From: Tetrahymena thermophila SB210
Lineage: Eukaryota; Ciliophora; Oligohymenophorea; Hymenostomatida; Tetrahymenidae
Assembly: GCF_000189635.1 (NCBI RefSeq)
Contig: NW_002476439.1
Location: 5,205 to 69,204 of the forward strand
Direction of reading: 5' to 3'
DNA: 64,000 nt
Position 1 is the stretch's first letter; every line of letters begins with the position of its first letter. The position numbers and the translations under genes were made by a program. Shown piece after piece: positions 20,509 to 57,986 of this stretch. The notes below the pieces were generated by a model. It did not search any database and was not told where the DNA came from. It was given only the letters and a program-made list of their open reading frames with translations.

Positions 20509-23500
20509 TCAAAAAATAAATTTACAAAAATTCTATTAGAACAATTAACTGGGATTCTTAAAAAGTTTTTTGCCTTCTTATTTATTTTATTCATCTGTGC
20601 TTTAATAAGGCTGGTAGGATTGGGATATTTTAGAATTTTGATTCTAAACAAAGAACTAATTCTAGGATTAACTGTGCTAAATATTAATTTCGTTTACATT
20701 TTCATCTTGGTAAAAATACTCTTTATCTTTACTGTTATATTAACTGAATTACTATTAAGTGTCTTCTTGATGTATTAATTCATTTTTTTAGCTTAGCTGG
20801 TATATGTTGTGACCTTGCTTTTTATAATTAATTAAAATCTTTGGTTGTTCTTCTTCTCTAGAATTATTTTGCTTTTCTGATTTTTATCTATTTGTTAGAG
20901 GAAGATTTTCTTGAAGATTGAGCTAGCTTGGATATTACTCTAATTTTTATCTTTGGATAATTGATTCAATATTTTATTGAGGCAAAGAATTTTCACTTTA
21001 AACACTACAAATACTTTTTTTCATTAATTGAATTGATTAAGGCATTTTTTATTGGTTTATTAAATTAGAAGAAATATTGGTGGAAGATTAATAGATTTCA
21101 TTATTCTAAGATTTCATTTACTAATGATTGCTGCTATGACTGCCTCTTTCAGTTTGAAAGTAATAACTCTCTTTACAATCTTAATTATCAGCTAAAGAGT
21201 TTTAATGATTTACTTACTAGATTTAGTTGATGTTTGATTACTTTAAACTTTAACTAGTTTGCTGCTAGTTTTAGTTACTGCTACTGCTCTAGAAGTAAAA
21301 ACTTGATTACTGTTGTATTTTACTTGCAGCAAAAGATTAAAATTAATTATTACTTTGAGGACTTAGAGAGCGATATTATAATATTTTTTTAGAGGGAGAC
21401 TGTAAATTTTGTGGCATGTTATTCTAATAGATTTAATTGAATTTGTTTGCTTAATTTTCTTAGTCATTTGTATTGACTGTTAATTTTTATACTTTCTTCT
21501 ACACTTCCTATGAATTTTTTATCATACTTTACTTCATTTATTGCCTCATTTAAAATGTCTTCAACTCATTCTCCTCTATGAAACATATCTCACGATACTT
21601 GCTATAATCAGATAAAGTCTATTTTTAAAAAATTTTTATTATCAAATATTTATTTATTTACTATTTAAGAGGATAATTACAAATAATTATCAATGTTTTT
21701 AATTCTTGACAATTTATTTTTAAAAATTAATTTTAATCATTTAATTATTGAAAAATAATAATTCTATTTAAAGATAATAAGTTATTTTTTTAAAAGATTT
21801 ATTTTTTTATCTGAAAGTAGAAAAATATTAATTTTTATTTTTTATAAAATAAATTTACATAAATGATGATGTTGGGGTCAGGAATATCTATTGCCTTCAC
21901 ATGGTTTAGCAATTTAGAAACTTATTTTGAGTAATTGGGGAACTATGTAAGAGGATTTCCTTAAAAGTTAAGTAATTCAAGGAACTTGTTTTGTTAAAGA
22001 GCAACAAGGGCTTCTAGATTTGGAAGTAAGTTGTTTTGTAAGTCAATTTATCTAATTTATTCAAGAGGAGCTGTGTTTTTTGAATGTATAAATGAAATTT
22101 AATTGTTTTAAGCATGGAGTTCTCTTAATTTGTAAAGATCTTCTAAGCCATCCAAGTTCTCTAGATAATTATAACTAATGTTTAGGAATTCAAGGTTATG
22201 AAGATCTGAAGTTGTTATTGATTTCAGAGACTTGATGCTATTAAAGGATAAATTAAGAATTCTCAAATTATTGTGGAGCAGATTTTAATTTGTTATTGAT
22301 GAAAATTATGGAATTTTTTCTATTTGACTGAATGTTATTTTGACTGCTTACGCATTTTAGAAATATTAACGCATAAGTTAAGAAGATAAAATTTCAATGT
22401 GCTCAGGATTTTCTTTGATGTAATCAAACTTGATTGCATAGAAGGGTAATTCATTGTCTTCATATGGGATGTAGTTGCAAACTTATTGCAAAAGTTATCT
22501 TTTATTTTCACTTAAATTTCTGCTGCAATCGTCATTCATCTTTTTAACTAAGTCTTTAAACATTATGCTTGTTTTTTCAAACTAAGATTTTACTGTAAAG
22601 AAATTGCTGCTTTCATCATTGTATGACTACGTCAATATCTAGTTTTCGCCAAAAATTAATGGATATTCCTATTAAGAGCTAACTAAATTTTATTATTTTT
22701 CTTTTAAATTATTATTTTCAAGTAAATTTTATTAGACAAAATTAGACTTTTGTTTCTTGTTAAAGTCTTCTACTTCATTTTAATTTTTATTTACTTTTTA
22801 TTTAGAATTCTGATTGAATTTAATTTTTTTATTATCAGATTCATCTTCGTTTTCTTCATCAAATAACTAACTATTCTCTTCGTCTTCCCTAAATTATAAA
22901 CGAGAAAATGTACTTTGCTCATTCAAAATTACTTCATCGTCTTCTCCTTCTAATTAATTCAAGCGAGAAATATCTTAAATTTCTAATTGCTCATTTTCAA
23001 TATTAGAAATCTGCTAAGTAGAAGAAATATTGATGAAACTTTAACTCTTTTGCATCATTGAACCTGAGTAATTTTCTTAGCTGTTTTAGATCAATTAGTT
23101 TTTATTACCAAATGAAGAATAAACTCCGTAATTTTGGATATTTTATTTGTTTTAGTTATTATTTATAGACTCTCTATTTCTCTCATTATTGTTTACTAAC
23201 TACTTAGGAAAATTGATGTATTCTGATAAGTTATTGCTAACAAGGAAATCAGCTAAACTGTCATCAATTTCATCTTGTTACTTAATTAATCCTGTAGGAA
23301 ATTCCTTATCGAGTATTCTGCGTAAGTTTTCAGGAGGCATATTTGTCTTAATCTGATTAGAACCTTAAAATTCAGATATATTTTTATTTTGATCTTATTT
23401 ATTTTAAGAGCTGTGAGAAATTTCTTAGATATTTTGACAAAAATGTTTATTTGCAGAATCATTAAAAGAAAAAATATTTGGATCATTATTGTATTTTGTA

Positions 23501-26500
23501 TTACTAGAGAGGTTAGCACTTGTGTTGAGATTTTTGATATAACTGTTGCAATTTTACTAAAAAGAAACTCGACTGTTGTTTTAGTTAGCATTTGAAATTG
23601 AATCACTATTGATAGAGTTTTAATTAAAATTGAACTATCTTTTTTTCATTATTTTTTGCATAGCTCTTGAACTAAAAGTAAGTTCTCTTCTATCATCGTC
23701 TGATTAAACTGATTGGATTAAATGAGAATTTTAATTATTTAAAGTTGGAGAGGCTGAAGGAGTGATTTGTTCATTTTAGTTCTAAACAGAGATACTTTAT
23801 TCACTTTCTTCTAACTTCAATGGCTTTTTACTATTTTATTTACTGTCTCCATCATCTTCATCTTAGTTGATTGTGTTCTCTTAAACTACTTTTTCCATAA
23901 TACATTCGAGCTGCTCATTCTTTAAGTTATTATTAGCACAAATAGTACCATTACTAAATTTTGCAATCATATTTTAATTTTAATTTTAAATAACTTTTGG
24001 TGTGCTGTTTCCTGAAGCGAAATTGGGAGCTGCATTATTTCCTGCTTGAAGAGAATTGAATATATTTGTATTATTAATATTCTATGTAGAAGCAGCTAAA
24101 TTCGATGTGTTATTATAAACTGTCGTTGTAGTTTACATAAGCTTGGAAATATCCACAATATCCTTGTTATTAGTTTCACCTAAAGCCATCAGTTCTGTTG
24201 CGATGTCTTAAAGAGTTACGTTTTTCATGCAAGATTCATTCATTTTTATAGCTGAAATATTCATTTATGTGGAAAAAGGTGAATTAATCATATAATCCAC
24301 ATTTCCTCCACTTTCGTTATTCATTACTTGACCGAAACCATTTTATTTATTTTGCTACACAAATTACTACTTGGACTAAATTTGTTATTGTTTCTCTCTA
24401 GAAAATTAATCTTAGATTTATTAATTATTTTATTGTTGATTGTTTCCTTACAAACCAAGTTATTTAAGTTGCTATTTCAAAGTTAAGCTGCTTGATTATC
24501 TTTAAATATTTTAGATTTATTAATTTTCTTGTTAAACTTCTGATATTTATTATTATTATTATTATAATTGCATTTATTACTTTGATAAGCTTACAAAGCA
24601 TTTGTCGTTTGATTGATTTGCTCTTGTAGAAGAAAGAGCTGATTAAGTATTTGAATGCTGTAAGTTATTTATAGGATTTTACAGTAATTAGCATTGAGAA
24701 CTAACTTTTTGTAAAGCTTTCTTTGGAGGCATACCTCTTTGAGAAAAAGCTAAGGCTTCAGCTTGCTGTTATTAAGTTATGACAATTACTTTTTTACTTT
24801 TGCTGTTTAAAATATTTTCTTCATTGTTTAGTGAGTTTTTCTTTTTATCTTCATTGGAGTTAGTGAAATAAGGTTAATTTGATTTTTTAATAGAATCAAA
24901 TTATTTAAGAGAATCTTCTCTATGGAATCTGGCAGTTTCTATATCATGGTCTTCAGTGTTGATCCTCTTCTCTTAAATATGTGCATTATTTTGTTAATTT
25001 TGAATGTTATTTATATTAATAGGGAGCTTTTAAATTTCAACATTTGATTTGATTTGAATATTGTTGTTATTATTTTAAGTATTATTTTTAAGACTATTTA
25101 CATTATTATAATTATTGTTTGAGTTTGTATTTTAAGTGTTTTAACTGCTGTTAAGTAAGTAATTGTTAGTGGTGCTTTAAACTAAATTGTTGGTGAAAAC
25201 ATGTTGATTTTAATATAAATTGTTTAATTATTATTGTTGATCTTGTATGATATTTGATTGACTTTAAGAATTTTTTATTTTTTTACTATTTGAAGTGAGA
25301 TTGTTTAATAAGTCATTAGTGGAATGTTTTTTAATTGATTCTATTGGCTTTACAAAATATTAGCTAGGACTAAGATTATTTTCATCTCTGATTGATTTTT
25401 CAGGAGATTTGAACTAAAGTGAGTTATTAACATAACCACCACCAGAGGATTAATTTGAAGATAGTTTTTTAATGCATTAAGGAGATTAAAATTTTCCTAC
25501 AGATGAACAGTTTCTATTTAATTGATTTTATTTTGGAGGAAGATTGACATTGCTGCTGTGGTGAACTCTTGAGCTGTTTGGTAAAGGAGGTATTTTGTTA
25601 AACTGTTAGTTTGAATTTAATTGCTAGTTTTACAAGTTATAACAGTTCTAAGCTTTATATTCAGTGATATTTTTATTTTATTTTTTATTATTTTATTGAT
25701 AAGGATTGTTGCATATTTTATATTCTTCTAATTCTTCTTATGCCAAAGTAATTAAAATATCACTGTTTTATTTATCACTTTCCTTTTATATAAATCTTGT
25801 ATCCTTATCTTGATTTGGCATTTGATTTTAAGCAATATTTTAATTTGAAAATTAATATTAATAAGAAGAAGGGATCTAAGTTTTATTTACAGGTGAAGAC
25901 ATACCTTCTATGTTGCTTTTAGACATTTCGATGTTTGTGTTATTTTAAAATTAAACATTAATCATATTTTCATTTTTTAATCTCATTTGGTCTCTCTTTT
26001 TATGGCGAGTTGAAGGGAAATATTATTTATTTTATTTAGGTAGTTCGCATGTTGGAATTTTATCATCTTTTTCTAAATTCTCTTATTCTTAAAATGCTTC
26101 TTGTAGATTTTTTCTGCTCTTAACAAGATTGTTTCCATTTAATACTTGCATATTTCCATTATAGCTTTGAGAGTGCTGGTGTTTCGAAGAAGAACTTTGT
26201 TGATTGTTTTAGTTAATATTATTATTGTTTGTATTAGCATTAAAATTTTGGTTTGTATTGCAAGCTGAATTAATATTCATAATGGCTTGGTTTTTTGGAG
26301 TCTTCAATGTGTTTTATGAATTCATATTAGCAAATGGTAATTGAGTTTGTATTGTGATTCCATTTACATTTATTTAGCTGTTACTCCTTTCCAAGCTTGT
26401 TTAGTTATTTGCTTTCAAATTACCATTACTTCCATTAACTTTTCTTCTCATCTTTTCAATTTACTCGTATGTTTTATCACCTTGCTAGAATATGTTAATG

Positions 26501-28593
26501 CATCTTTTGATTTTTGCCTGCTCAGGCTAAATATTCCCTACTAAGTTAAATATTTCATCCATTGTAATAAACTAATTTTTATAATATCTTAACTCTCTAG
26601 TAACATCTTTAACACTCAATCCTAGTTCATTGTATTTTTCATTATATTTTTCTTCTTCAAGCAATTAAAAATCCTATAAAAAATATTTTTTAAATAAATC
26701 AAATAGAAACAAAAAAATGTTTTTTACTTCTTATTTACTAATAATGCTATTAACTAAATCTTAAATGCTAGCTTTTCCCTATTTTTCAATTCCTTCGAAG
26801 ATATTTCTAATTTCAATAAGCCAATTCATTCTACTCATAATAAGAATTTTTTGGTTTGACTCTCTATTCGAAATAGGGCTTTTGCTGCCATGAATATTAG
26901 TTGTAGATTACTATTGATTCATGTAAGGTTGTCTGCTAGAAAAATATCCACTAACCATATGATAAGGTTATCTATTTGAGCTATTTTATTCATTAGTGTT
27001 AATTCTTTCTGTATTTTGTTACTAGTTCTAGATAATCTAATTCTATAATAATCCTTATTAGTTAATGCTATTACAAGGAGATAAAGATCTATCAGTCACA
27101 GCATTTGGTTTCTTTTAAACAGCTATTCTCTGTAAATCAAGAGGTGGCACCATAGAATTAAGTAAAACCCCAGTTCTAACTTTTGAAATTTTTTATTACT
27201 GCTAATTTAATTGCTGTTAATTACAAATGCTTTCTTATTTAATTAAACCTATTAAAAATTATTAAAATATTTTATTTATTTATAAAAATAAAATTTTCAA
27301 ATGAATCTCTTTAATCAAATGAATTTTTTTAATGCAAAAAACAATGTTTTATTTTTTTAATTTATAAAATGATTATTTATCATCAAAATATAAATTTTTT
27401 TAACGTGAAATAAAATAAATTTAGAAATAATTTGAATATTTACCTGCTTTGAAACTAGAAACTTATTATATTGGGAGCTATTATTATTGTAATTACTAAT
27501 AAGGTGACTATATAGTTTTATTGCTTTAGCAAGAATTTAATGTTGAATTAATGTTAAATGCCTAGCTTTATTAAGAAGTGTTTGAATTATTGTCTCCAAT
27601 TTAAGATTGCTTTGTAGTTAGTTGCTATGCATTGGTAGAATTAGAAGCTATGCTTGAGCTATGACTAGCTGAGTTATTAATGTTTTACTTTGCTTGATTT
27701 ATTTTCTCTAATACCTGCTCTCTAAGAGATTAAGCCTTACCTTACTGCTACTATTGCTATTAAATACACATCTAATTAAATGAATACTAGCTTTCTGATT
27801 CTATGCAAATATTCTTTTCTGATTGAATAGCAAAATTTTTCAATTTTTGAATGTGATTTTCATTTAGGTCTATATTTAATAATAATATTTAGTAAAATAT
27901 CATAGAAGCTTATATAAATATTACAATTGCCTGTAAGAATTACTGCTTGAATTGTATTCTAATCGTTAATAAGGTCGAAGAAACAGGTTATTTACTAAAT
28001 TTTATAAAATGATTGAAGGTTATTGATAGGGTTGGACTAGAAATTTTGCAAAATTTAAATTCAAATATTGAATGGAGTGTTTAAGATGGTTAAATTGATG
28101 TTTTTAATAACAACTGTTAAGAAGATTGAGTGTATGAATGATTAATTTTCAAAATAGGTTTAAAGCATTTTGAATGTTTAAATTTCAAAGTAACAAAAAA
28201 GAGGCAAAAGATGAATTTATTTATTGATTAATTAATTAAATGAATGTTTTAATGATATTATTTAAATAGTATTGAAGAAATATCTATTTATCTATCAATA
28301 TATTATTTACTTCTAATTAATTATAGCTGAAATCTATCGTCAATATATATTTGTCATTCTATTTTTAAATTAAAAATATGTTTTCTTTAAAACATTTTCT
28401 TTTATTTTACTGATAGTGTTCTCAAAAGAGGCAAAATATCTATATCGTTTAGTCCTTGGTTGCTCAAATTCATTTCTATATACTAATGAGGGTCTTTTAT
28501 AATATTGAAGCATGATTTACTTAAAATATCAATACCATTTAAATGCTAATTTACCCTACTCAGACTTTTTAAAAATTGTAATTATTGAAACAT
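20509..28593 (-). CDS. Giant leucine-rich-repeat protein with EF-hand-like segment
   Basis: A spliced gene of roughly 2,400 residues. Exon 28593-28411 starts MFQQLQFLKSLSRV and contains LRR units (YIEMNLSNQGLNDIDILPLL). Exon 28358-28311 continues them (ILTIDFSYNQLE), and LLNIDLNENHIQKLKNF follows near 27.85 kb; the joins between 28.31 and 27.9 kb are unresolved. Introns read clearly at 27443-27249 and 26727-26674. Between them lies an EF-hand-like segment (MNWLIEIRNIFEGIEKQGK). Then comes a long Asn/Ser/Gln-rich region. The C-terminal LRR block is at about 22.3-21.86 kb (LEFLNISYNYLENLDGLEDL). An intron at 21858-21619 precedes a Q/S-rich tail. TGA at 20509 closes the frame, but a GTAAAT donor just before it could splice into the 20.48-20.37 kb island. 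Probable cytoskeletal or ciliary scaffold, by inference. It could also be two genes. Confidence 0.65.
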
Positions 28594-29966
28594 GTGGAGT
28601 AATGTCCTCGTTTAGACAATTCTACAAATAATTTCTTTTTTGCTAACTCAAGTGTATAAGGAAAGAAGCTTTTTTTAAAGAAATAACTCAGTTACAGTTT
28701 ATAATAAAAAGCAATATTTAAATAATATTTAAAGATAAGATAGATTAATCACCATTCCAGTTATTTTCGCTGATGCTCATTTTATATTTTATCTATATTC
28801 CTATAATAAACTGCTAAATTTGTAAATCCTAATCTATTATTCAAAAATTTGATCTTTAACACTTTTTATATTCTTTAATAGCAATTTCGGGTTGATATTC
28901 AATATTCCTTTTATCTTACCCTTGTAATATTGTATTGTTTATTTTCTTTTATTTTGATACAATTTTTGTAAAATCAATTGAATCTTTGAAATCTGTTCAA
29001 AAAAAATCAAATCAAAACATAAAAAATCTAAGCAAGTAAATAAATAAATCAATAAACAAGCACTGCAAATATCAAAGTATATAATTCAATTTGATTTGCG
29101 CGAAAAATATTCAAATGAAATTTAAATCACTAACAAATTTTTCAAAAATAATCAATTATATTCATTCAGCGATCAATTAATTGAACCATTCATATTTAAA
29201 TTATTATTATTATATGCATAGATATCTTATATGTAGATTTTTCTGACTCTTATTTCATATCTATATAATTAGATGAATAAATAAATAATTTAACTAACAA
29301 CATCTAAATAGCCTCTTTATTGCATTCCAACAGAGATTTTTAAAGTATATACAGTTGTAAAATCATTTTAGTTTAATTCATTTAATTATCTTCTTTCAGT
29401 AATTACTAAAATTTTTTCACTTTCCTTATGTTTTTCTTTTGACATTTAACTACATTTTTTATTTAATGTAATTCAGCTTTATATTAAATTTTTTACTTAA
29501 TTTTTATTTCTTTCAAGATAATAGTAAATTAAACCATCATTAAGTTAAATTCAACAATCATTACTCTAAATATCTTCAATCAGTAGAACCATTATTTCTA
29601 AACAAATAATAATAAAAGAAGTATTGTTTGATGATATATTTTAATAAGTGATAATTTTTTTTTATTATTCAATAAATAAATTTTATAATGTAATTCAAAT
29701 AAAAAAATATTTCATAGATTTTTAAAACTATTTTTAAGTTTAAATTTTAATAGTTAAATATTAATTAGCCTATCAATAGTTAAAAGGGTTTTTAAATCAA
29801 GAATTTATAGTAAATTTAAAAAATAAAAATAAATAAATTTTGTTTATTAATTATGAAAAATAAATTTGATTAATTAAAAATAATTTTGACAAAAAGTAAA
29901 ATAGTTTTATATTTAAAGATATATAAAAACAAACTTTAAGTATTTATTAATGTTTATATTTTTTGT
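28594..29966. other. Intergenic A+T-rich stretch
   Basis: Upstream of the LRR gene and downstream of the first lectin F-box gene. A possible short 5' exon (MSISENNWNG) lies at about 28,767-28,738 on the minus strand. Otherwise nothing recognised. Confidence 0.4.
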
Positions 29967-31403
29967 TCATTGGACATTTTTAAAACTGTTATTAAACAGG
30001 TTAATTTCTTATTAAGTTAAAACAGGGATTAGTCTGCAGGTAATTGATCTTAGCCTTGGTCCAAAATGTCCTGCCCAAAATCTAGAATCCTGACCTGAGA
30101 TAGAGAATATTATTATTTAAGGCTTTGATTAATTTAAGTTCTATTTTTTGATATAACCAGCGATGTTATAAAATTTGAACCCTCTTTATATTGTATCAAA
30201 CTTCTTCCTTTGGATAAATATACAGTTATGTGCTTCATCTTGTATTTATACTTCTGCTGTTAAACTACCTCCATAATTACTGTCAGCTATTTCAATTCCA
30301 AAAACAATAGCTAAGGAACTGTTTTCTATATTTTCTATGTCATTAGCAGTAAAGATATCATGCATCTTTCTTTTCCAAACTAAAATATTTTTCATATATG
30401 AAAACTTAAAATGAGTCAATCCATTCAAATTTTCAATGTAAGAATCTTTCTGCTCTGCCTGCCCATATTCACTAAGAAATTCGAACCCACGAAATTTATC
30501 TTCTCCATGAGGATTTTAAACATAATTTTTAATATTATCTTAATAAGTTCTAAGATTATTCTTTTATTCGCTAGCTAGACTTTCTTGCTTAATTAGATTT
30601 TGATAATATTTGATTAAATTGATATTACCACTAAATAAAGCTCTTCTTCCTATTTCGTCAATAAACAAAACTTCATTTGATAATATTTTTGCAAACAATT
30701 TATAAGCTCTCATCAAAATTGACATTTCCTTAACAGTCAAATAAGGAATTAAAGATCTCAACGCTGATTTATTTGAAGCAATTATTTCAATAAAATTTGA
30801 TTTTGGATTAGTATTATATTTTTCAATAGAGCAAATATCTGCTTTTAAAATGCACAAACCATTAAAGTGAGAGCTTGTCGAGCCAGAAAAACAAGTAAAG
30901 TGGAACCCTTAAGGTGCTGTAAAAGAATAAGTCTCTTATTTACTTGTTTGGCGACTTCCATAAGTAAAACATTTACCATTATTCAAAAAAATCTTAATTT
31001 TATCTATAACATATTCTACATATACCTTTATATCAATAATAAATTCATCATCTGAAAATTTGATTTTATTTTAACTCATATTTTTTATCTGCTAATGGCC
31101 TATTATATTTCCTTTAATGGTAAAATCCTAATTTTTTTCTAAATTCTAGTATTGTTTATATATAAACTAAATAGCAGCCAGTTCATTACTTTAATTTTCA
31201 AATAATACAATTTCACTCACTTTAAAATTCTAATAGCCTTTATCGCTTAACAGAAAGAAGTCATCCTAAGGATGTATCTCATCTCCAGTAGAGAAACCTA
31301 ATGAAATATCTTTGAGCATAAGTCTGTTTTCAAGTGCTAACATCTACTTAAGCTAAACTAATTATCCTGACGTTTATTAAATATTCATATTCTAGTTACC
31401 CAT
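29967..31403 (-). CDS. Jacalin-like / F-box-like / FBA-domain protein A
   Basis: Single exon of 478 aa, ATG 31403, TGA 29967-29969. Three regions can be read. Residues of about 30-195 are a jacalin-like lectin fold: a beta-rich segment ending with APKGFHFTCFSGSTSSHFNG. Residues of about 215-255 form an F-box-like helix set (LIPYLTVKEMSILMRAYKLF). Residues of about 300-465 are an FBA domain of the FBXO2/FBXO6/NCCRP1 type: EIADSNYGGSLTAEV, RGFKFYNIAGY, then the signature SISGQDSRFWAGHFGPRL, which aligns with the family's DTQYW-GWYGPR motif. Known FBA F-box proteins bind N-glycans and hand glycoproteins to SCF ubiquitin ligase, so a glycoprotein quality-control adaptor is the likely role. It is paralogous to the next gene 600 bp upstream. 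Confidence 0.8.
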
Positions 31404-31997
31404 AAAAATAATTTATTAAATATTAAACAATTCTAATAAAGCAAATATTTAATAGAATAAATCTAATTAATATAAAATCCAAGTAATTTATTTATAGATT
31501 AAATTTAATTGAAATAGCACATAGTTATTTACCTAGTTCTAACTAAAAAAATTGACCAAAAAGTACTATTTTAAGAAAACTTGTTAAATGTTTAGTTTTT
31601 TATATAGAACAAAAATAATAAATTGATAAAAACATAAAGATAATTTTTAAATTTTGCTTTTATCTTTTTCTTTTAAGATAATTGAATTAAATAAAAAATT
31701 TACAAGATTTTTCATAGATAAATAAAGAAGGTCTATTATCTAATTTATCAACAATCTATTACAAACAAATATATATATGTATATTATCCTAAGGTACTGC
31801 CTTTTTTAGGTTATATACTAAAATTTTAGATATTTAGGTAATATCAAAAATGTTTATTATATTAAATAAATTTTAAATTTTAATATAAAAATATACACCA
31901 TATTTATTTTTTGATATTTTTTTACTCGTTAAAATGAAACTAAAATATAAAAAATTAATTAATTTATTTATTTATATTAAAAATCATATTTAAAATT
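31404..31997. other. Spacer between the two paralogues
   Basis: Non-coding A+T-rich sequence separating the 3' end of paralogue B from the start of paralogue A, read on the minus strand. It serves as promoter region of A. No motif recognised. Confidence 0.5.
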
Positions 31998-33413
31998 TCA
32001 AAATATATTTTTCATAGTATTTTTGAATAAATTAATTTGCTATTTATTTTAAATAGGAATTAATTTGCATGTAATTGATCTCAGTCTTGGACCAAAATGC
32101 CCTTTCCAAAATCTAGAATCTTTTCCTGATATAGAAAAAATGATTTTATGGGGCTTAGATTACTATGATTTTACATAACTAGCAATGTTATAAAACTTAA
32201 ATCCTCTCTAAATTTTACTAAATTCTTATTTTTGTTAAAAAATAGAATTTTATTCTTAATCTTCAATTATTACTTTTGCTCGCAAGCTGCCTCCATAATT
32301 ACTGTCTGCTATCTCAATTCCGAAGACAATAGCTAACTACCTATTTTCTATATTTTCTATACTTTTAGAAGTAAATAAATCATGCAAATATTTTTCCCAA
32401 ACTAAGGTTTTTTCTATGAAGGAAAATTTGAAATGAGTTAATCCATTTAAGTTTTCAATAAAGCTGTAATTTTTCTCAGCTTCTTAATTTCCCTAAAGAA
32501 ATTAAAAATTTTAAAATTAGTCATCTCCATTTGGATTTTCAACATAATTTTTAAAGCAATCTTCATATGAAATTAGAATATTTCTTTTCTCGCTGTCCTT
32601 ACTATATTTACTTATTATTTTTTGATAATATTTATTTAAATTGCTATTACCACTAAATAAAGCTCTTCTTTCTATTTCATCAATAAATAAATCTTCATTT
32701 GATATTAATTTTGCTAAAAGAGTGCATGTTCTCATCAAGACTGATATCTCCTTAACAGTTAAGAAAGGAATTATCAATCTTAAAACAGATTTATTATCTG
32801 GAATAATTTCGATAAATTTAGATTTATGATCACGATTATTATGTTATTCAATAGGGCAAACATCTGCTTTTAAAAGGCACAAACCATTAAAGTGCGAACT
32901 TGTGCATCCTGAAAAGCAAGTAAAGTGAAATCCTTTGGGTGCAGAAAATTCGAAATATTCATAATCCATTCTATGGTAATTTCCAAAGAAGTATTCTCTT
33001 CCATTACTCAAAATAATAGTAATATTTCCAATAATAAATTCTACTTAAATAGTTATTTTAGTGATGAACTGATCATCTTGCAAGTTTATTGATTTTTAAA
33101 GTAAATCGCTTGTTTCTTATTGACCAATTAAATTCCCTTTTATTTCATAATTCTCATTGTTTTTTTAATTTTGATATTGTTTGTATGTAAATTGAATAGC
33201 AACCACTTCTTTTTTTTAATTCTCAAATATTATTATTTTAGATACTTTAAAATTCTAATACCCTTTATCACTTAACAGAAAGAAGTCATCCATAGGAAGA
33301 GCTTCATCTCCTGTGGGAAAACCGATTGTAAAATCTTTAATCATCAAGCAATTTTTTTCAATTAAGTTTTATTTTATTTGTTTTAATGTTAGTTAAGACT
33401 ATGTTACTTCCAT
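31998..33413 (-). CDS. Jacalin-like / F-box-like / FBA-domain protein B
   Basis: Single exon of 471 aa, ATG 33413, TGA 31998-32000, same orientation as A. It is colinear with A over its whole length and clearly a tandem duplicate. The lectin region carries APKGFHFTCFSGCTSSHFNG. The F-box-like helices read LIIPFLTVKEISVLMRTCTL. The FBA domain ends with SISGKDSRFWKGHFGPRL. The 'GPR-L-R-S-I-T-C' end of the FBA core is conserved in both. Divergence is concentrated in the linker after the F-box-like part and at the extreme termini. Fe, Zn or nucleotide-binding motifs are absent. Function as for paralogue A: probable glycan-reading SCF adaptor. Confidence 0.8.
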
Positions 33414-33490
33414 TTTAAGTAATTTTTAATTGATGATAAAAAAATAACAAAGGTAAAAGTATTTCTGATATTGTTTATATAATAAATCGA

Positions 33491-33808
33491 AAAGAAATAA
33501 ATCAATTTATTTTTCCTTTTCTTAACAATCCTATTTAAATTATTTAATGAAAAAGATTTTTGCAAAAATACTTTTTGAAATAATCAAATTTTCTAACAAA
33601 ATTGCATTTTTAAAAATCGTAAAAAACTCTTGTATTAACAAAGGGCTAAGGAAATTCAAAAGAAATAAATCAATTTATTTTTCCTTTTCTTAATAATCCT
33701 ATTTATTTTATTTAAAGCAAAAAGATTTTTAACATCTAAAAAGTATTCTCTTAAATAATTGCATTAATATAAAATCGTAAAAAATAATAGTATTAACAAA
33801 GGGTCAAA
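33491..33808. repeat. Two-copy direct repeat, period about 168 bp
   Basis: Copies start at 33493 and 33661 (agaaataaatcaatttattt in both). Both end with a gtattaacaaaggg block, and divergence is moderate. It lies just upstream of paralogue B, in its likely promoter. Confidence 0.75.
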
Positions 33809-34890
33809 ATTAATATATTAATGAAACAAAAATTAATTAGTTAATGAGTCGAAATGTTTGTCTGTGTGATATTCTAACATATCTCAAAATAAAATAATAA
33901 AAGATAATCATTTAAATAAATCTTAATAATGTATTAAAATAAATAAAAGTAAACAAACAAAAATCAAAAAATATTAAAAGCAAATTAAATTAAATTTTAT
34001 TTTAGTTTTATTATAACAAAATATTTTTATTTTTCCTAAATTAATTCATGAAGTTTTATGCAAAATATTTACTTTTACTCAATTAAAAACATAAAAAAAA
34101 AAAAATTCATGCATTAAATTATATTTTTATAATATTATGCAAATTAAATAGTTTTTATAATATATTTGTTATAAAAATCAAAAATTAATGATTATAGATT
34201 AAGCTATTTTAAAAACTAGAAAAAATTTAAATTTAATGATAAAATTATTTTTTTTTTATTTAATTATATTATTGATTTTTAATTACTTTAATTTATTGGA
34301 TTTTAAAAATATAAAGTAAAGAAAATATAAATATTTTACTTTTTGCTTTAATTAATTTTTATTTCAGTTCTAAAATAAAAAAAATATTTTGATAATTGAG
34401 AAGATAGAGTATATTTATTTTGTTTATAATATAAAATAGAATTATTAAATAAATAAATATCACTCTATAAAAAAATTATCTCTAAAAAGATTTATTTGTT
34501 AACTTGTATGCTTGTTTACTTATATGTATGAATGCTTTAGATTAAAGTAAATTAGAATTAATTTAGCTACTTTCTCATAAAATGTTAGGAAATTCCTAGG
34601 GTTTTTGCTTAGTTAGAACTATCAAAATTAATAAAATTAATGAAAAAAATAATAAATTTAGATATTTGGCTTAAAAATGGTTTCTGTATGTATTTATGTT
34701 TGTATGTATGAATGAATATAAAGTGGAGAGATATATTTATATATATTGTTATGAATTACTATATATTTCTGATAAATTAATTAATTAACTAACTAACTAA
34801 CTAACTAAGTATAGAGTAGAAGATACATATATAAATATACTTTAAACATTTATTAATAGAAACATTTAATATAAGTAGCGCAAATTTAAA
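33809..34890. other. A+T-rich intergenic region
   Basis: Divergent promoter region between paralogue B (minus) and MMS19 (plus). It contains a short (CTAA)n run at about 34,785-34,808. Nothing else recognised. Confidence 0.5.
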
Positions 34891-37800
34891 ATGAATATTG
34901 AAGACTTTTTGAATAGCTTTGGCAATAAGGGTAAAAATTAGGAGGAAGACATTGAAAAGACAATAGTGGAGTTTATTGATAATGAAGCTAATGATAGAAG
35001 TGTCGATACAAAGTGTATAACTAAGTTGCTGATTGCTTTTTAGATGAATCAGATTAATCTTTTTTAGTTTTTTGAAAAAATGTAATTTTATTTTGTGAAT
35101 GGGAGAGAGAAGACAAGACAAAGAGCAACTGAGTTTATTTATCTGTTTTTTAGCAGGTACTCAGGTTTATAAATGTCTTAGGAGGAAGTAGAATCGCTCT
35201 ATTTATTTTTCTTAACTAAGCTGTTCGATGTTGCCACAGTGAAGACTGCAAATAAGGTGTTGCTAGAATTACTGAAAAATGTAATCAAGCATTAGGAATA
35301 AATGAAATAAAAAATAGATTCAAAGAAGGCTGGAGCCTTTAAGGAATTTAAGTTCAATTTAGCAAAGCAGTTTATAGAAAAAATCAGTGATAGCAAGTTC
35401 AATATTTCACAATATTCGCAAGATGTGAGAGATTCCGTTTACATTAATCTGAGGTTCTTGCAAGAGAATTTCACAGAAAGCTGCGTAGAATTGGGAGCAA
35501 CATATGTAAAAGTTATTATCGAATCTACAGAAGATGAGAAAGATCCAAGATGCATCATTAAGTCATTCAAATTAATAAGATTTGTTTTGGAAAATTTCAG
35601 TTTATCTATGTTGAAACCATTTTTGGAAGATATTTTTGATAACTTAGAGTGCTATTATCCTATTGATTTCTAACCAGATCCAGAATAAGATAAAAAGTAC
35701 TAGATTTCTCCAAAAGATCTTTCCGAAGCACTTGATTTGTGTCTAATTAATAAGCACATTTTGCAAAAAACTTTGGACATCATCAATGAAAAAATAAACT
35801 CTTCATATATAGATGCCAAGTTAGCCGCAATGCAAACTTATTAATTAGTTTTTAAAGTAATAAAATTATTCTTTATTTGTTTAATCTTAATAAAGATTAT
35901 TATAATTCATAGAACTACCTTCCAGGATAATTGCTTTCTTCTTAAAGAAAACAGATCTTGAACAACTTAATAGAAAATGCTTAAGACATCGAAGAAGTTG
36001 AATTATAAGACAAAGTTGTTGACTCTATCAAATAATATATTGTATTCATTACTTCTACTTGCAAATCAGATACAAGTAATCCAATAATATTTTTTATTTA
36101 TTTAAAATCTAGCTAAATATATCTTTCCTTTTTTATTTATTTGCTTTTATCAATACTTTTTTAATGCATTTCTTGCTTTAGAAACAATAATAAAGGATTC
36201 ATTCTTAGAAGTTTTTATTGATTTAAGCAGTTATTTTTTGCATTAACATTTAGTAGCTATTTAGGAAATTTTATTATGCTCTGATAAATATTTATTTATT
36301 GGCTTTTTATTCACTTTTTTTAGCATTTCTTTTATTAGAAACAATGAAAATTTATTGATTTTTTACTTGATTTTTATGGAAATTTAAAAAAATATCTGTT
36401 TTTAATAAAGAAAAATGAATGAATTTTTTTATTTATTTGTTTTTGATTGGTTAATTAATCAGATATTATTGAAAATTGTTATTACGATGATTTGAAGTTA
36501 GTAAATAAGCACATTTTTAAACTCCTTGAAGACGGTCTTCTTCATCACAATGCAGCTCTTTCTGAGAAATTAATGAAAGTAAATAAAAAAAATAGTATTA
36601 GTTAATGGATTAAATAGTTATTATATTTATTATAAAGGCTCTGATTCCCATAAATTAAAATATGAATTACACAATTGTCAACTCTATTGTGAAGTACTTT
36701 AATAGCAGATATACAAATAAGGAATCAATAGTTGCTTAAAGATAGCTTGAATTTGTCTTAGTAATTTTACTTGCTGCAGAACAAGAGATAAAACACTCAT
36801 GCGATTTTATGCTCAATCCCTTCTTCTACCTTGATGAAGAAAAAGAAAAAGTATAATAAAAACTTTTAAAAACCTTAAAAATAATATAAAAACATTTTTT
36901 GATTTTTAATTTTAATGTGAATTTATTTAATTAAAAAAAAAAGAATTTAAAAAACATCTTGATGGGAGAAATTTAAAATACAAATGATGAATCAATATAA
37001 ATATTATCTTTAGCAATTTTGATGAAATTAGCTGTTTATGGCAAGGCATCTAAAGAAATGGTAATTTAATTCATTTCAATAGAATTTAGTTTGAATTAGA
37101 TGTAATAAATAGGATATTGAATTCATGAAAGTTTGTGAAGACATCGGAATAACAGAAGCAGAATTAGAAAACTACTCTGAAACTGTAAAGAAATGTATGG
37201 TTGAATACTGCTATACTGTTAACTCAAAGCTCTAAGAATGTAAATTTATTTAAATAGAAATAAAAATACTTATTATTTATTGTATTAAAATAAAATTTCA
37301 GCTCAAATCTCATTCTTAGAATTAAAATTGGTTGGGTTACTTGGTTAGTAAAACATGAACGAAACTGTGGTTAATGGATTTAATTCTATGATTTTAAATA
37401 ATACAGATGGTTGGAAAGAATGCTTCGACTTCATAATCTAACACATTAACAACCGCGATTAGCAAAAATTAATAAATTTATTATTAGAAAAAGTGATTTC
37501 CCTGAACAAAGAATATGTCAATAAACACATCTACTAAGAATTAACATAAATAAATAATTTAATTATTGAAGATAAATAAACAAGAAGCTAATTAAAGACT
37601 ATCCTTTCAAATGTAATTAAAAGTGACTGTGAATTAACTGAATAAGAGATATCCTCATTTAAATCTCTTATACAAAAGCCATATGAGAGCATCACATTAT
37701 TCACTAAGCTCATTAAAAAGTTAAGCAAAACCATTGAAATAAAAGATTTTTTCATTTAATTCAGTCAAAATATCTAAAAAAGTGACATAATTAAAGACAA

Positions 37801-51509: not shown

Positions 51510-53419
51510 TTATTGTTGAATGTTTATCAGTTAAGCAATTTTAAATAAGTTTAACCTGTAGAAAAAACTTTAAAGTTGTTTATTATGAATTTAGAGTGGA
51601 ATTAAATTTAAGTAAAAATGTCATAAGCTAAATATGCAAAATGACATCATTTGCTCTTTAGAGATGGGTTTTCTGGCTTAAACTCTACTAATTTTTAACT
51701 TTCTTTGTATAAAAAGATATTAATTAAACTTAACTGCGATCGTTGCTTAGCTAATACATCAACTACTTAACTATTTAAAGATAATTGACACGATTTAACT
51801 ATAATTAAATATAGCCAACCAATCCTACTTAAGTATCAAAAAGATACAACAAAATCATTAATTTGTTTACACAATTTATAATTTTTATTTTCCCATCATA
51901 TTCCTTACTTACATACATGCATTTCCTTACTTTTGTAAGTGAACAAATGACACTTACATTACATTACAGCATGCAATATTAAATATAAATCAATCAATCA
52001 ATCAATTATTTTTCTTACATTTAATCCTTCATAAAAATACCTACTATTAAAAAATAAATACTTAAAAAAATACTTATTTTCTAAAATAAAATTGCAAATA
52101 AAAAATATCTTTTCTAATTCAAGTTACTTTCTAATTTCAAACATTACCAAACGCTATTTTTGAGTAAACCAAATCAATTTGGATACTTGAAAAAACTAAA
52201 TCAAATTATTCATTCATTTTTCTTTTTCTTTTCATCTTCAAAAAATTCAACAACAAGATATTAAAAAAAAGAAATTCAGAATCATTTTAAATTTATTCTT
52301 AAAATTTTATTTTCAATTTAAATTTCTTAAAAAACCCAAATAAAAAATTTATTTTTGGTTAAAAATGATTTAATAAAAAGCCTTTAAGTTTTTGCTCAAT
52401 GTTAAATTTATTCTTAAAATATTATTTTTAATTTGAATTTCTTAAAAATCCAAATAGAAAATTTAGTTTTTGTTATAAAAGATAAAAAAGATTGAAAAAT
52501 TCTTAGCTTTTGCTCAATGTTAAATTTATTCTTAAAATATTATTTTCTATTTAAATTTCTTAAAAATCCAAATAGAAAATTTAGTTTTGCTTAAAACTGA
52601 TTAAATAAAAATCATTGAAAAGGTTTTTAGTTTTTGCTCAGTGTTAAATTTATTCTTAAAATATTATTTTTAATCTTAAAAAATCCAAATAGAAAATTTA
52701 GTTTTTGCTAAAAAAGAAAAAAATGATTGAACAATTCTTAGCTTTTAATCACTTTAAATTTATTCTTAAAATATTATTTTTCATTTAAATTTCTTAGAAA
52801 TCCAAATAGAAAAGTTTTTTACTAAAGGAGTAAATAAAAATGATTGAAATAAATATCTTTGTTAAATTTAAAATTTATTTTGTTCAGAATTGTTTTAAAA
52901 TTTAATTAATTAATTTTTGATTTGATCTTTCTGAAATAAAGAGTAATAGAAAAATGCATTTATAGGGAAGGTAGCGGTATTTGGATGTAATTAATTTCAA
53001 AAAATAGTGAAATGAGTTCTAAATTTTGTTAAGAAATCATTAGATAAGATCAAGAGTTAATTTTTAAATTATGATTTAGATGAATTTGTAGCATAAATTT
53101 ATCAAATTTTTTGGATTGAATTAGAATTACAAAAAGAAACAAAGAAGAATTGATTGATAAGAGAAAACATTAACTAGATTTTGATAAAAATACAAAAAAT
53201 ATTTTAGTTATCTTTAGATTTAGATTAAATTATAAATTAACCATTTGATTGATATTAACCGCGAATAAATATTCAAAAGTTGCTATTAAAAAATAATATT
53301 TAGCTAGTTATAACTCTATCAAGCAAGTTTGTTCAAAATTAATATATATTTTTTATTATTCTAATAAATAGCTAGTTCGATTATTATCAAAATATTTAGC
53401 TCAATTCGATTTACATTCA
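51510..53419. other. Intergenic region upstream of the helicase
   Basis: A+T-rich, with an (ATCA)n run near 51.99 kb and the five-copy tandem array listed separately. Nothing else recognised. Confidence 0.5.
52270..52830. repeat. Five-copy tandem array, unit about 110-124 bp
   Basis: The phrase aaatttattcttaaaat recurs at about 52289, 52404, 52522, 52646 and 52756. Each copy is followed by a cttaaaaatccaaatagaaa-type block and a variable A/T linker. Middle copies are the most alike. It ends roughly 590 bp before the helicase ATG. Confidence 0.85.
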
Positions 53420-56400
53420 ATGCAATAGGGATAGATTACTAACTTTTTTAAGAGTTCATCTAAAAGGAAGCTTGATTTTAAGCTCAAAAATGGAGCTGAG
53501 ATCAAGCCTAATGAGGAATAGGAAAAGATTATTTATGAGGATAAAAAAAACCACATGCAAATCAAGGCTTGTGCAGGATCTGGTAAAACTACTACGATTC
53601 TCTGCAGGGTCAAGTATTTAATTGAAAAGGAAAATGTCAATCCTAATAAAATTTTGATTACTGCTTTCAATGTTGATGCAGCTAAAAATGTCAAGTAGAA
53701 ATTAAATTAGCTTGTTTCAGAAAAGGTTGAAAAACTTATCACTGTAAACAATATTGATAAACTAAGCAAGCAATGGGTAACTCAATCAAAGCAGTTTGAT
53801 GTTGATTAGCTCTACGTCAAAGAGTATACCACCAAAGTTGTTTAGCTCATGAAGAAAGACAAAGCATTTAGAAATAAAATTGTCAGCTAATTTGATTATA
53901 TTTTCTTTGATGAATTTCAAGATATCAATCCTGATGAATATGAAATGCTCAAGATTTTTGCAAGCGAAAATACTGTCATCACTTTTATTGGAGATGACGC
54001 ACAAAATATTTACGGATTTAGAGAAGCAAAACTCCATAATAGCACTCAAGCGGTAGATTCAGATTTTCCTGATATAAAAAAATATTATTTGACATGTAAT
54101 TATAGATCTACAGAATATATAGTACAATTTGCTAATTCTGTCCTTGAAAGTGCTAAATCTGACTATGGATACAAAATGTAGATGACTTCATTTCCTCCAA
54201 ATAATCAAGGTAATAATTAACCTCCTGAATTCACTAAGTATGTTAGTATAAATGAATAGAATGAGTCTATTATTTCTCATATTTTGGAACTTGTAGAAAG
54301 TGGATTTACTTTTGATTAAATTGCTGTATTAAGTCGAACAAATAAGCCTTTATAATTTTTAGAGGAATCTCTTGAGATTTATAACAATTAAAAAGGAAAG
54401 ACTTCAGTTGGGAAGGAAGGTGTTATTAAAATAGATGGTGACAGTCAAGCTAGCTTGAATAGTGGTAAAAGTAGTTAAGGAAAAAGCTAAAAGAATTCTC
54501 TTAAAAAAGAAGAAACTTTTGATGGAAGAATTCCTTATGTGGCTCACATTTCGGATAATAAAGAAAAGAATATCAAGCTTAAATTTAAAAACAGCAGCTC
54601 TGAATAAAAAGTAACTCTCACCACTATCCATAAATCTAAAGGTTTAGAATGGGATGTAGTCTTTTTAATTGGACTTAATGACGATTATTTTCCAGGTAAA
54701 ATTTAATTTTATCAATTTAAAATAAGTTTTTTTGGAACTAAAGATTTTAAATAGGCACAAATAAAGAAAAAGAAGAAGAGGAAGAGAGAAGAATATTTTA
54801 CGTAGCAGTAACCAGAGCAAAAAAGAAATTGCTCATGAGTTTTGTTTGGAGTAAAAACAATTAAAACATGACCAGGTTCGTTGCTTAAATTAAATCTAAT
54901 CTCTACATGGGATACACACAGCCTTGGATCAGCGAATAGCAGAAATGCAATGAAAAAATGAGGACAATCGATAAAATAAAAAGCAAAACAGTGATTTTAA
55001 CAGATATAATTGAATTTCTTAATAAAGATCATTATGAGCAACTTAGAAATTAAGGATTTTTAGACTTAAAGAAAGAAATTATTCAAATTCACTTTAAATG
55101 TAAACTAGGACAATACATTATTGATAATAATTTAGTTCCTGAATTTGCTTAATTTTTTAAATCGTATTTGATTCGATCAATAGGAGAAGAATACAATGCC
55201 ATGCTAACTGGCAAAGAGACATCCTCAGTAAATAGCAAATCGAAGGGAAACAAGTATGACAAAGGAGATGATTATGAGAATGACTAAATGGCTATGGCTT
55301 TTAATAATAAGTATTGCTAAGGAGTCTTGTTCTCTGAAACTAGTTTCAGCAATTTAGAGCACAACTCTGTAAACAATTTAATATACTCTATTGATTAAAA
55401 TTTATTAAGCAGCTATTACATTCAGGATACCAAAAAGAGAGAAGAAATATTCAAATCTCTCATTCAGTTTAAGGACAAAAATCAAAAATCAGATGACATT
55501 CTTAAAAGCATATTCAATGTTTCTATGTGTTATAGCATTTTTAATTAAAGAAAAAGACTCTTACACAAAGACGATGCATTTAAGCATTTCGAAATGAATA
55601 AAAATATTTTGAAAAATAGCAAAAAAGCATTCATTCCTGAAGTATTAAAAAAGACACCTAAAGGAAGTGATGTTCCTCAAGTAAATTAAACAATTTACGA
55701 TGAAACTTATTAAATAAAAGCTGACTACGATATAATCACTGAAGATACTATTTTTGAGATCAGATTTTAGTAGCAGCAATTAGTAAAACCTGAGGATATA
55801 ATAGAATTGCAAGCAAAAGCTTAAATACTTTAAAGTGCATGGAAAATAAATAAAATTAAATATATAACGATTTATTATCCACTCTAAGGAGAATTGATAA
55901 CTATGGATATACAAAATAAGCAGTTAGAAGGAGTTATGAAAGTGCTATATAACGCGAGATAAGATAAATAGGAAGCATGTTCAGTTGCAAGTAAATCAGT
56001 CCCTTCTTCTAACCAAGAATCTCAGCTGAATCTAAGCTAATCGAATATTAAATTGCCTATGCAAAATTAAATTCTTAAACTAAGTCACGATTATTTTAAC
56101 AAATCTGAATCAGATGATTCATTTCATAGCCAGAAAAATCCATTATCAAAGAAAAAAGATCCAAAATCCCTCTTTGAAAAGTATGGCCAAGAAGAAGATC
56201 TTTATGAAAACCACTTTGGAGACGAGTACTATGACAACTATGATTGTTTACCAATAACAAAAGCATAATACAAAGAAATTACAAGCAAGATGTCCTTGAA
56301 AATAGGATCCTAATCATAAAACAGTCAATTTTCATAGGAAAATGCATATTTTAAAAACAATATTAATGGCTCATAAAATTTCAATAATAGATCTAAAAGT

Positions 56401-56760
56401 TTAAATGAAAGTGATGAGTCCCAGAAAACAAACAATAGCAGCAGCAATTATGCCAACTTTGGATTCGTTAAAGCAAGTGATATAGCAAGTATTAAATCTT
56501 CCTTATAAGCAAAGAAATCAGTAACAGCTCAATAAAAGTGCATTCAAAAACTTTCAATACCTGTCTCTTCTTCCTCTCAATCCCAAGAAAAACCCGCCTT
56601 CAACAACCCAACCACTTCCTTCTTACGAGAAGACCAAACGAAATTCACCTATGCATCTTCTTTCCACAAATCTTTAGATTAAACAACAAAATTCGCCTCA
56701 GTATCTTCGTTTCACAAACCTCTAATAAAAAAAAATTAAAACACTCAAAACAAAAACTGA
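53420..56760 (+). CDS. UvrD/Rep/Srs2-type SF1A helicase with N-terminal PIP box
   Basis: Two exons (53420-54695, 54755-56760), 1,093 aa. Helicase motifs in order: Walker [10 protein letters not shown] (about 51-59), Walker B FFDEFQD (about 162-168), [11 protein letters not shown] (about 191-201), TCNYRS (about 225-230), [15 protein letters not shown] (about 400-414), and [13 protein letters not shown] (about 434-446). These define a 3'-5' ATP-dependent DNA translocase that removes recombinase or other proteins from ssDNA or unwinds it. Residues 3-10 (QGQITNFF) match the PCNA-binding PIP box Q-x-x-I-x-x-F-F, followed by KSSSKRK. The 400-residue C-terminal part is Ser/Asn/Gln-rich and unlike UvrD. 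It ends with a duplicated SSFHKSL/SSFHKPL motif. The closest functional analogy is Srs2 or PARI. Confidence 0.9.
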
Positions 56761-57986
56761 AAATTAAAAAAATCTACAACAAACCTAAAAAATTCTGTTA
56801 ATAAATAAATGAAACATTGCATTGCTCCTTTTAATTTTAACTAATATATTTTAATCAAATTAAAACATTTAGCAAGACTATCATTTTATAACTACTTCTA
56901 ACTATCTAATTATATTTCTATATACTTCATTTGTATAATTTCATATCAAAATTTACATTTAATAATTTGTTAAATTCATTTTTCAATTATTCTAGTTAAA
57001 ATAAATATAATTATTAATAATTGTTATATTAAAATTAAATATATTTTTAATAATAAATTAAATAATTAATTATAAATATAAACTAAAATAAGAATTTTGT
57101 CAAATTATTTTTTTTACAAAAAATTCTACTTAAACTTGGATTAAAAACTTCTTTCTCACAAATTTCCTTATTTTTTTTTTTTGATAGCGAGTGTTTCAGA
57201 GTCTAATATCTAATTATTTACTATAAGTTTACAATCAAATGATTTAAGAAACTATTTAAATTAAAAATATTTCTATATAAAAATTTATTAAATGGTATTA
57301 TTATCAATGAATGAATAAATCAATCAGTGATACTTGAGAAATAAATTATAAAATATTAGTTTGTTTTCAGGTTTATTTGAATGTAATTGAAATATTTATA
57401 AATTAATTAATAAAATATTAGATAAAGAAAGCTCGAATTGAGGAAGTGAATAATATTGATAGAAAATAATTAAATATATGGTGATCTTATTTATATTTTT
57501 ATTATAAAGCATTCTTTACAAATTAATATATAAAATGACAGTAGAAATAAATAATATCATGATAAAAACAATTAATAAAATTATTAGTTTTTTTTTCTAT
57601 AAAAATGGCTACTAAAATGCCAGTCTGAAATATGCTTTTTAGCCTTTTTGTTTTTCAAATAAAATTCTACTAGTAGAAATATTTTGTATTTAATAGAGAG
57701 AAAGATATTTGGAAATGAATAAATCATTGTTACTTTGTTACTCAATGTAAATAAATTGTAGGAATATACAGCAATCTATCTACTCAATAAAAATTTAAAC
57801 AATACTTGCAACTTTGATCATTAAAAGCTTATACAAACTCTTGATGAATTTCCAATTTTTATTTATTTATTAATAAATAAATAATAAATAGTAAGACAAA
57901 TATTTGCAAATTAAATCGATTTGTTTTTATACTATTAATATAGCTAAAAATTAATTAAAAATTCAATGAAATAGTTTAATTTTGAT
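56761..57986. other. Intergenic A+T-rich region
   Basis: Between two same-strand genes. No coding signal or notable repeat. Confidence 0.5.

Follow-up and report, generated by a model that had tools for sequence, protein, structure and literature searches.

Two neighbouring genes of the ciliate Tetrahymena thermophila raise the question of whether a single polypeptide joins a jacalin-type lectin domain, an F-box and an FBA domain of the FBXO2 type, and of what such a chain would recognise. The window, i.e., the whole stretch of 64,000 nucleotides analysed here (contig C111:5205-69204), was studied together with its own genome (101 Mb, 445 contigs). It is AT-rich throughout (GC 18-31% in 2-kb steps) and no tRNA genes were found in it. 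We take the genome to be macronuclear, judging by its genetic code, by the GGGGTT repeats at the first bases of contig C4 and again from ca. 465.6 kb, and by the usual features of ciliate genomes.

The gene pair, its code and its relatives

Under the standard or bacterial code the region 26000-37500 contains just two open reading frames of at least 90 aa, the longest there at 97 and 106 aa, so both codes were rejected for this stretch and the ciliate code is required. Under the standard code 5 frames in the whole window have at least 120 aa, while translation table 6 (TAA and TAG read as Gln) opens long frames, and genes A and B are open solely when TAA and TAG encode Gln and TGA is the stop. 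The initial annotation had placed tandem genes at 29967..33413, and these limits proved exact, from the ATG of gene A at 33413 to the end of the TGA of gene B at 29967, with the two genes as neighbours on the minus strand and of the lengths given in Table 1. A spacer of 594 bases separates them and their proteins are 60% identical.

The frame of gene A stays open upstream as far as 33803, across a stretch holding a duplicated 78-nt repeat. We take the ATG at 33413 as its probable start because gene B and two further relatives (C and D, below) start at nearly the same aligned position. The 78-nt direct repeat (33484-33561 and 33652-33729, 87% identical, spacing 168) is accompanied by a second one of 33 nt (33613-33645 and 33771-33803), and the repeats look like a tandem duplication of the 5' region of gene A. 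Gene B begins with MGNQNM (31386-31403, minus strand), i.e., with Gly at position 2; N-myristoylation usually has Ser/Thr, which is absent from this start. Fbs3/FBXO27 is described as N-myristoylated in the available part of a review (PMC6389600).

Around the pair, a frame with an MMS19 N-terminal domain (34393-35958, plus strand, E 1.1e-44) lies on the opposite strand to A and B, and a Gln/Asn-rich open frame (2614 aa), part of which matches leucine-rich repeats, occupies 20512-28353 (minus strand); no tie of these two neighbours to the pair was found. Further along, UvrD-type helicase domains extend across two open frames at 53249-56757 (plus strand), which are therefore probably one gene with an intron.

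Table 1 Features of genes A and B (window positions; residues refer to the predicted proteins)
Feature	Position	Strand	Description and basis
Gene A	31998..33413	-	Intronless, 471 aa; jacalin-like/F-box-like/FBA; table 6, TGA stop
Gene B	29967..31403	-	Intronless, 478 aa; jacalin-like/F-box-like/FBA, like gene A
Jacalin-like core of A	32889..33254	-	About residues 54-175; alignment to B only
Jacalin-like core of B	30864..31229	-	Residues 59-180; PF01419 27.6 bits, E 4.4e-6, profile 19-130 of 136
F-box-like helices of A	32670..32795	-	Residues 207-248; PF12937 13.3 bits, E 0.075, below cut-off
F-box-like helices of B	30648..30773	-	About residues 211-252; alignment to A only
FBA domain of A	32055..32561	-	About residues 285-453; four-member profile; A alone 11.4 bits
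FBA domain of B	30024..30539	-	About residues 289-460; four-member profile; FBA part of B alone 16.3 bits, E 0.0087
FBA signature of A, DSRFWKGHFGPR	32085..32120	-	FW aligned with Fbs1 Tyr279-Trp280
FBA signature of B, DSRFWAGHFGPR	30054..30089	-	Sequence and alignment to FBXO2

A genome search with protein A returned three matches, namely A itself, B and C (contig C191:41211-42548), the two relatives being 59% and 32% identical to it. Searching with C gave 7 matches, including four pieces on contig C177 that make up member D, a protein of 468 aa encoded by four exons with three GT-AG introns (55, 63, and 56 bases). The family thus has at least four members, family counts in this genome being lower bounds. 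Identity to B is 60% for A, 28% for C and 22% for D, and all four have the order jacalin, F-box-like, FBA, which we infer is best accounted for by one fusion predating the duplications. Between A and B dN/dS is 0.26 overall, with 0.35 in the jacalin part, 0.28 in the middle (F-box-like) part and 0.17 in the FBA part, figures that are rough because dS is ca. 1. A chance reading frame was rejected for the pair, since it has three relatives with the same domain order and is under purifying selection (dN/dS 0.26). Viral and prokaryotic collections yielded no relatives, as none of 33 pattern-matching stretches, and none of 588 in a second search, encoded one.

Jacalin, FBA and F-box-like parts

The C-terminal part is an FBA domain. 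The signature that the initial annotation had reported as directly visible is present in both genes (Table 1), and the domain assignment was upheld by profiles. Full-length C exceeds the curated cut-off of PF04300 (39.1 bits, E 8.7e-10, cut-off 32.4 bits) as the only one of the four to do so (D 18.3, B 14.6, A 11.4 bits), and, when the FBA parts were searched separately, all four matched FBA at E up to 10. A profile of the four FBA parts found 9 sequences in the PDB, of which the first 8 were FBXO2 (6 sequences, best E 3.7e-7 over 161 of 186 positions), FBXO6 and FBXO44, and the ninth BAG6 (E 1). FBXO2 also came first in the PDB when full-length A, B and C were combined into one profile (E 0.0011); single-sequence PDB searches were weak, reaching FBXO6 at E 0.67 and 0.22. 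A six-frame genome search with PF04300 returned one place, member C, below the cut-off at 20.9 bits; as it missed A, B and D, it says nothing about the absence of FBA domains unaccompanied by jacalin.

The jacalin assignment holds by profile for three members and for gene A by alignment to B alone. Full-length B, C and D score 24.3, 26.5 and 30.1 bits against PF01419 (curated cut-off 22 bits), full-length A has no Pfam jacalin match, and the separate N-terminal parts match PF01419 in three of the four; over this part A and B are 55% identical. In the PDB the four-member jacalin profile reached 22 sequences up to E 10, made up of 12 griffithsins (best E 2.5e-4), 4 ZG16-type chains, horcolin, a salt-stress protein, 2 'hypothetical proteins' and 2 unrelated entries. 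The possibility that the N-terminal third is a piece of the FBA beta-sandwich, which the initial annotation had named as the case against its own proposal, was checked by profile and ruled out, since this third, taken by itself, matches jacalin (gene B, Table 1). All four family genes escaped a genome search with PF01419, which picked out 5 jacalin places elsewhere that pass the cut-off; this search is therefore not exhaustive. Three loci (L006, L008, and L009, about 670-1866) combine a Pro/Gln/Gly-rich N-terminus with a C-terminal jacalin domain, and two of them lie close together on contig C67.

The middle segment is the divergent one. No member has a Pfam F-box match over the cut-off (24.3 bits for PF12937, the F-box-like model); the segments of B, C and D give nothing, and a genome search with this model at E up to 1 returned 17 places, 8 over the cut-off, with A-D all absent. 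From those 17 genome loci we built an F-box profile of our own, and from 12 of them a second version. The latter is a true F-box profile, its best PDB matches being F-box/WD proteins (best E 1.5e-8). With the 17-locus profile A scores 14.3 bits, a value reached by 1 of 625 other window frames and by none of 4000 shuffled sequences; B, C and D score at most 2.7 bits, the best matches of C and D falling outside the segment. With the 12-locus profile A obtains 12.7 bits (best domain 11.6), against 12.7 for FBXO44 and 12.3 for FBXO6, both real F-boxes, and 1 of 625 other window frames exceeds it, at 16.6 bits. The best domains of B, C and D (-1.2, -1.1, and 2.1 bits) all lie inside the same aligned segment. 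The sole background frame above gene A lies at 57327-57962 (minus strand); it has no Pfam match, and its score on the F-box profile is 16.8 bits.

Profile-profile comparison by hhalign gave 49.5% for the four-member segment against the 17 loci, where 100 column-shuffled segments reached at most 3.2%, and 62.9% against the 12 loci, where the jacalin and FBA parts of the family itself reached 0.2%; the two locus sets overlap, so these two values are not independent. Searched against the PDB, the four-member segment profile found no F-box protein. The distance from the segment to the start of the FBA domain is ca. 78 residues in A versus ca. 66 in FBXO44. We consider that the family likely has an F-box, divergent and as yet unproven. 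Of the three-part order that had been proposed from the letters, then, the jacalin and FBA parts are secure and the F-box is moderately supported, having the hhalign signal and the score of A in its favour, and against it the negative PDB search and the lack of a match over the cut-off in all four members.

Sugar-site residues and the probable role of the pair

Fbs1 requires Phe177, Tyr279 and Trp280 to bind N-glycans, according to the available part of PMC4603797. Counted along the alignment to 2e31, the equivalent of Trp280 is Trp in all four members, while position 279 has Tyr in D and Phe in the other three. For Phe177 the alignments to 2e31 and 1umi give Leu in all four; the alignment to 5b4n, the best-scoring chain, has Phe or Tyr there in all four, with a gap placed beside it. 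For jacalin-type domains, the mannose site is described as a GG loop plus a GXXXD motif, as in ZG16p, whose Asp holds the mannose (PMC4059138, in the part available). At the GXXXD position the family reads SxxxN in A and B and SxxxD in C and D, so that the motif Gly is present in none of the four, and a Gly-rich stretch (GGTGGGE or GGNGGGE) occurs in C and D and is missing from A and B. Thus, C and D (L003:1417-2844 and L036:831-2411) retain the jacalin Asp and the GGxGGGE loop, and the window pair is the one that has diverged at the jacalin site. The initial annotation had also suggested that one chain may read two glycan features at once; the change of the jacalin Asp to Asn and the missing Gly-rich loop leave this unsupported for A and B.

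Our preferred reading, to which we give a probability of roughly 60% from sequence comparison, is that A and B are SCF receptors of the Fbs/FBXO2 type to which an N-terminal jacalin domain has been added. They would be lectin-type F-box proteins of the cytosol, encoded in tandem, and the N-terminus has no signal-peptide-like stretch as judged by eye. The C-terminal FBA domain, homologous by profile to those of Fbs1/FBXO2, Fbs2/FBXO6 and FBXO44, would recognise either N-glycan cores that are exposed or a different part of the substrate, and the divergent F-box would dock on Skp1 and hence on an SCF ubiquitin ligase. The N-terminal jacalin-type domain (seen by profile in B, C and D and by alignment in A) would add a second recognition surface, perhaps for sugar in C and D and probably altered or for a non-sugar ligand in A and B. 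By analogy with the Fbs family, the likeliest role would be to pick retro-translocated or membrane-exposed glycoproteins for ubiquitination. Genes for Skp1, cullin and STT3 are present in the genome, as one would expect in a eukaryote of this kind. The receptor idea is testable, since Tetrahymena is a laboratory organism that is routinely tagged and subjected to gene removal.

The alternative that survives best, unlikely as we consider it, is that the F-box is decayed or was never functional and that the proteins are cytosolic binders with two lectin folds (jacalin and FBA) acting without SCF. NCCRP1 offers a model, being an FBA protein whose F-box region, in the available text of PMC3210139, is missing key residues and fits none of the F-box patterns, and three of the four members here have no F-box signal on their own. 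The profile-profile signal, which lies where an F-box should and at a fitting distance from the FBA domain, argues against it, as does the conservation of the F-box-like segment between A and B (dN/dS 0.28).

Rather less plausible to us are SCF receptors that bind proteins, with neither domain binding sugar. FBXO44 binds no sugar although its pocket residues are conserved (PMC4603797, in the part available), A and B have divergent jacalin motifs, and Leu may occupy the Phe177 position; yet Trp280 and an aromatic residue at 279 are kept in all four members, whose identity to B is 22-60%, and one alignment places an aromatic residue at 177. A bolder and quite improbable scheme would have ciliate SCF receptors with two unrelated lectin folds flanking the F-box, in which ubiquitination needs two glycan features (C and D) and the window pair is moving one of the sites towards a new ligand. 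Very unlikely is a true dual-glycan receptor, whose jacalin domain would bind mannose branches and whose FBA domain would bind the chitobiose core, either on the same glycan or on a neighbouring one, since for all that both are lectin folds and that C and D keep their jacalin Asp and loop, with Trp280 matched in all four, the pair has Asn for this Asp and no loop, and the motif Gly is found in no member.

Comparison with known lectin and F-box proteins

Griffithsin, ZG16p and horcolin, which are stand-alone lectins, resemble the family in their jacalin-type sequence profile. ZG16p uses the GG and GXXXD motifs (PMC4059138, in the part available), whose Asp has given way to another residue in A and B. 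NCCRP1 is alike in having an FBA domain with a poorly recognisable F-box, and differs in that a jacalin domain goes unmentioned for it in the available text (PMC3210139). Judging by the titles and abstracts among the matches listed, the literature describes no ciliate jacalin/F-box/FBA protein; automatic database annotation may already show the architecture.

The mammalian proteins Fbs1/FBXO2, Fbs2/FBXO6, FBXO44, FBXO17 and Fbs3/FBXO27 share with the family an F-box-like part followed by FBA at similar spacing, and the FBA pockets are alike in Trp280 and in an aromatic residue at 279. Unlike them, the ciliate family has jacalin in front, a much weaker F-box and possibly Leu for Phe177. The available part of a review (PMC6389600) describes vertebrate genomes as encoding the glycan-reading Fbs (FBXO2-type) F-box proteins, and plants as having lectin F-box proteins unrelated to these; it also gives a tandem arrangement for mammalian Fbs genes, and makes no mention of a jacalin-FBA fusion. 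An FBXO2-type FBA domain in a ciliate would, if true, mean that this arm of glycoprotein quality control, or its fold at the least, reaches far beyond vertebrates.

The plant F-box/F-box-AD1/jacalin proteins are alike in bringing F-box, F-box-associated and jacalin domains into one chain, their type 1 F-box-associated domain presumably being of a different family from PF04300. One plant paper, in the part available, applies PF04300 to plant FBA domains (PMC3719486). In the plant chimeras, as far as the accessible texts describe them, the F-box comes first and jacalin last, some having the type 1 domain between (PMC5536079, PMC5485960). The ciliate order is the reverse of this N-terminal F-box and C-terminal jacalin, and jacalin and F-box domains would then, if our reading is true, have been joined more than once and in differing orders. 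Together, the jacalin-type domain, the weak F-box and the FBXO2-type domain of A and B suggest a receptor that reads sugars for protein degradation and is built unlike the known vertebrate and plant ones.
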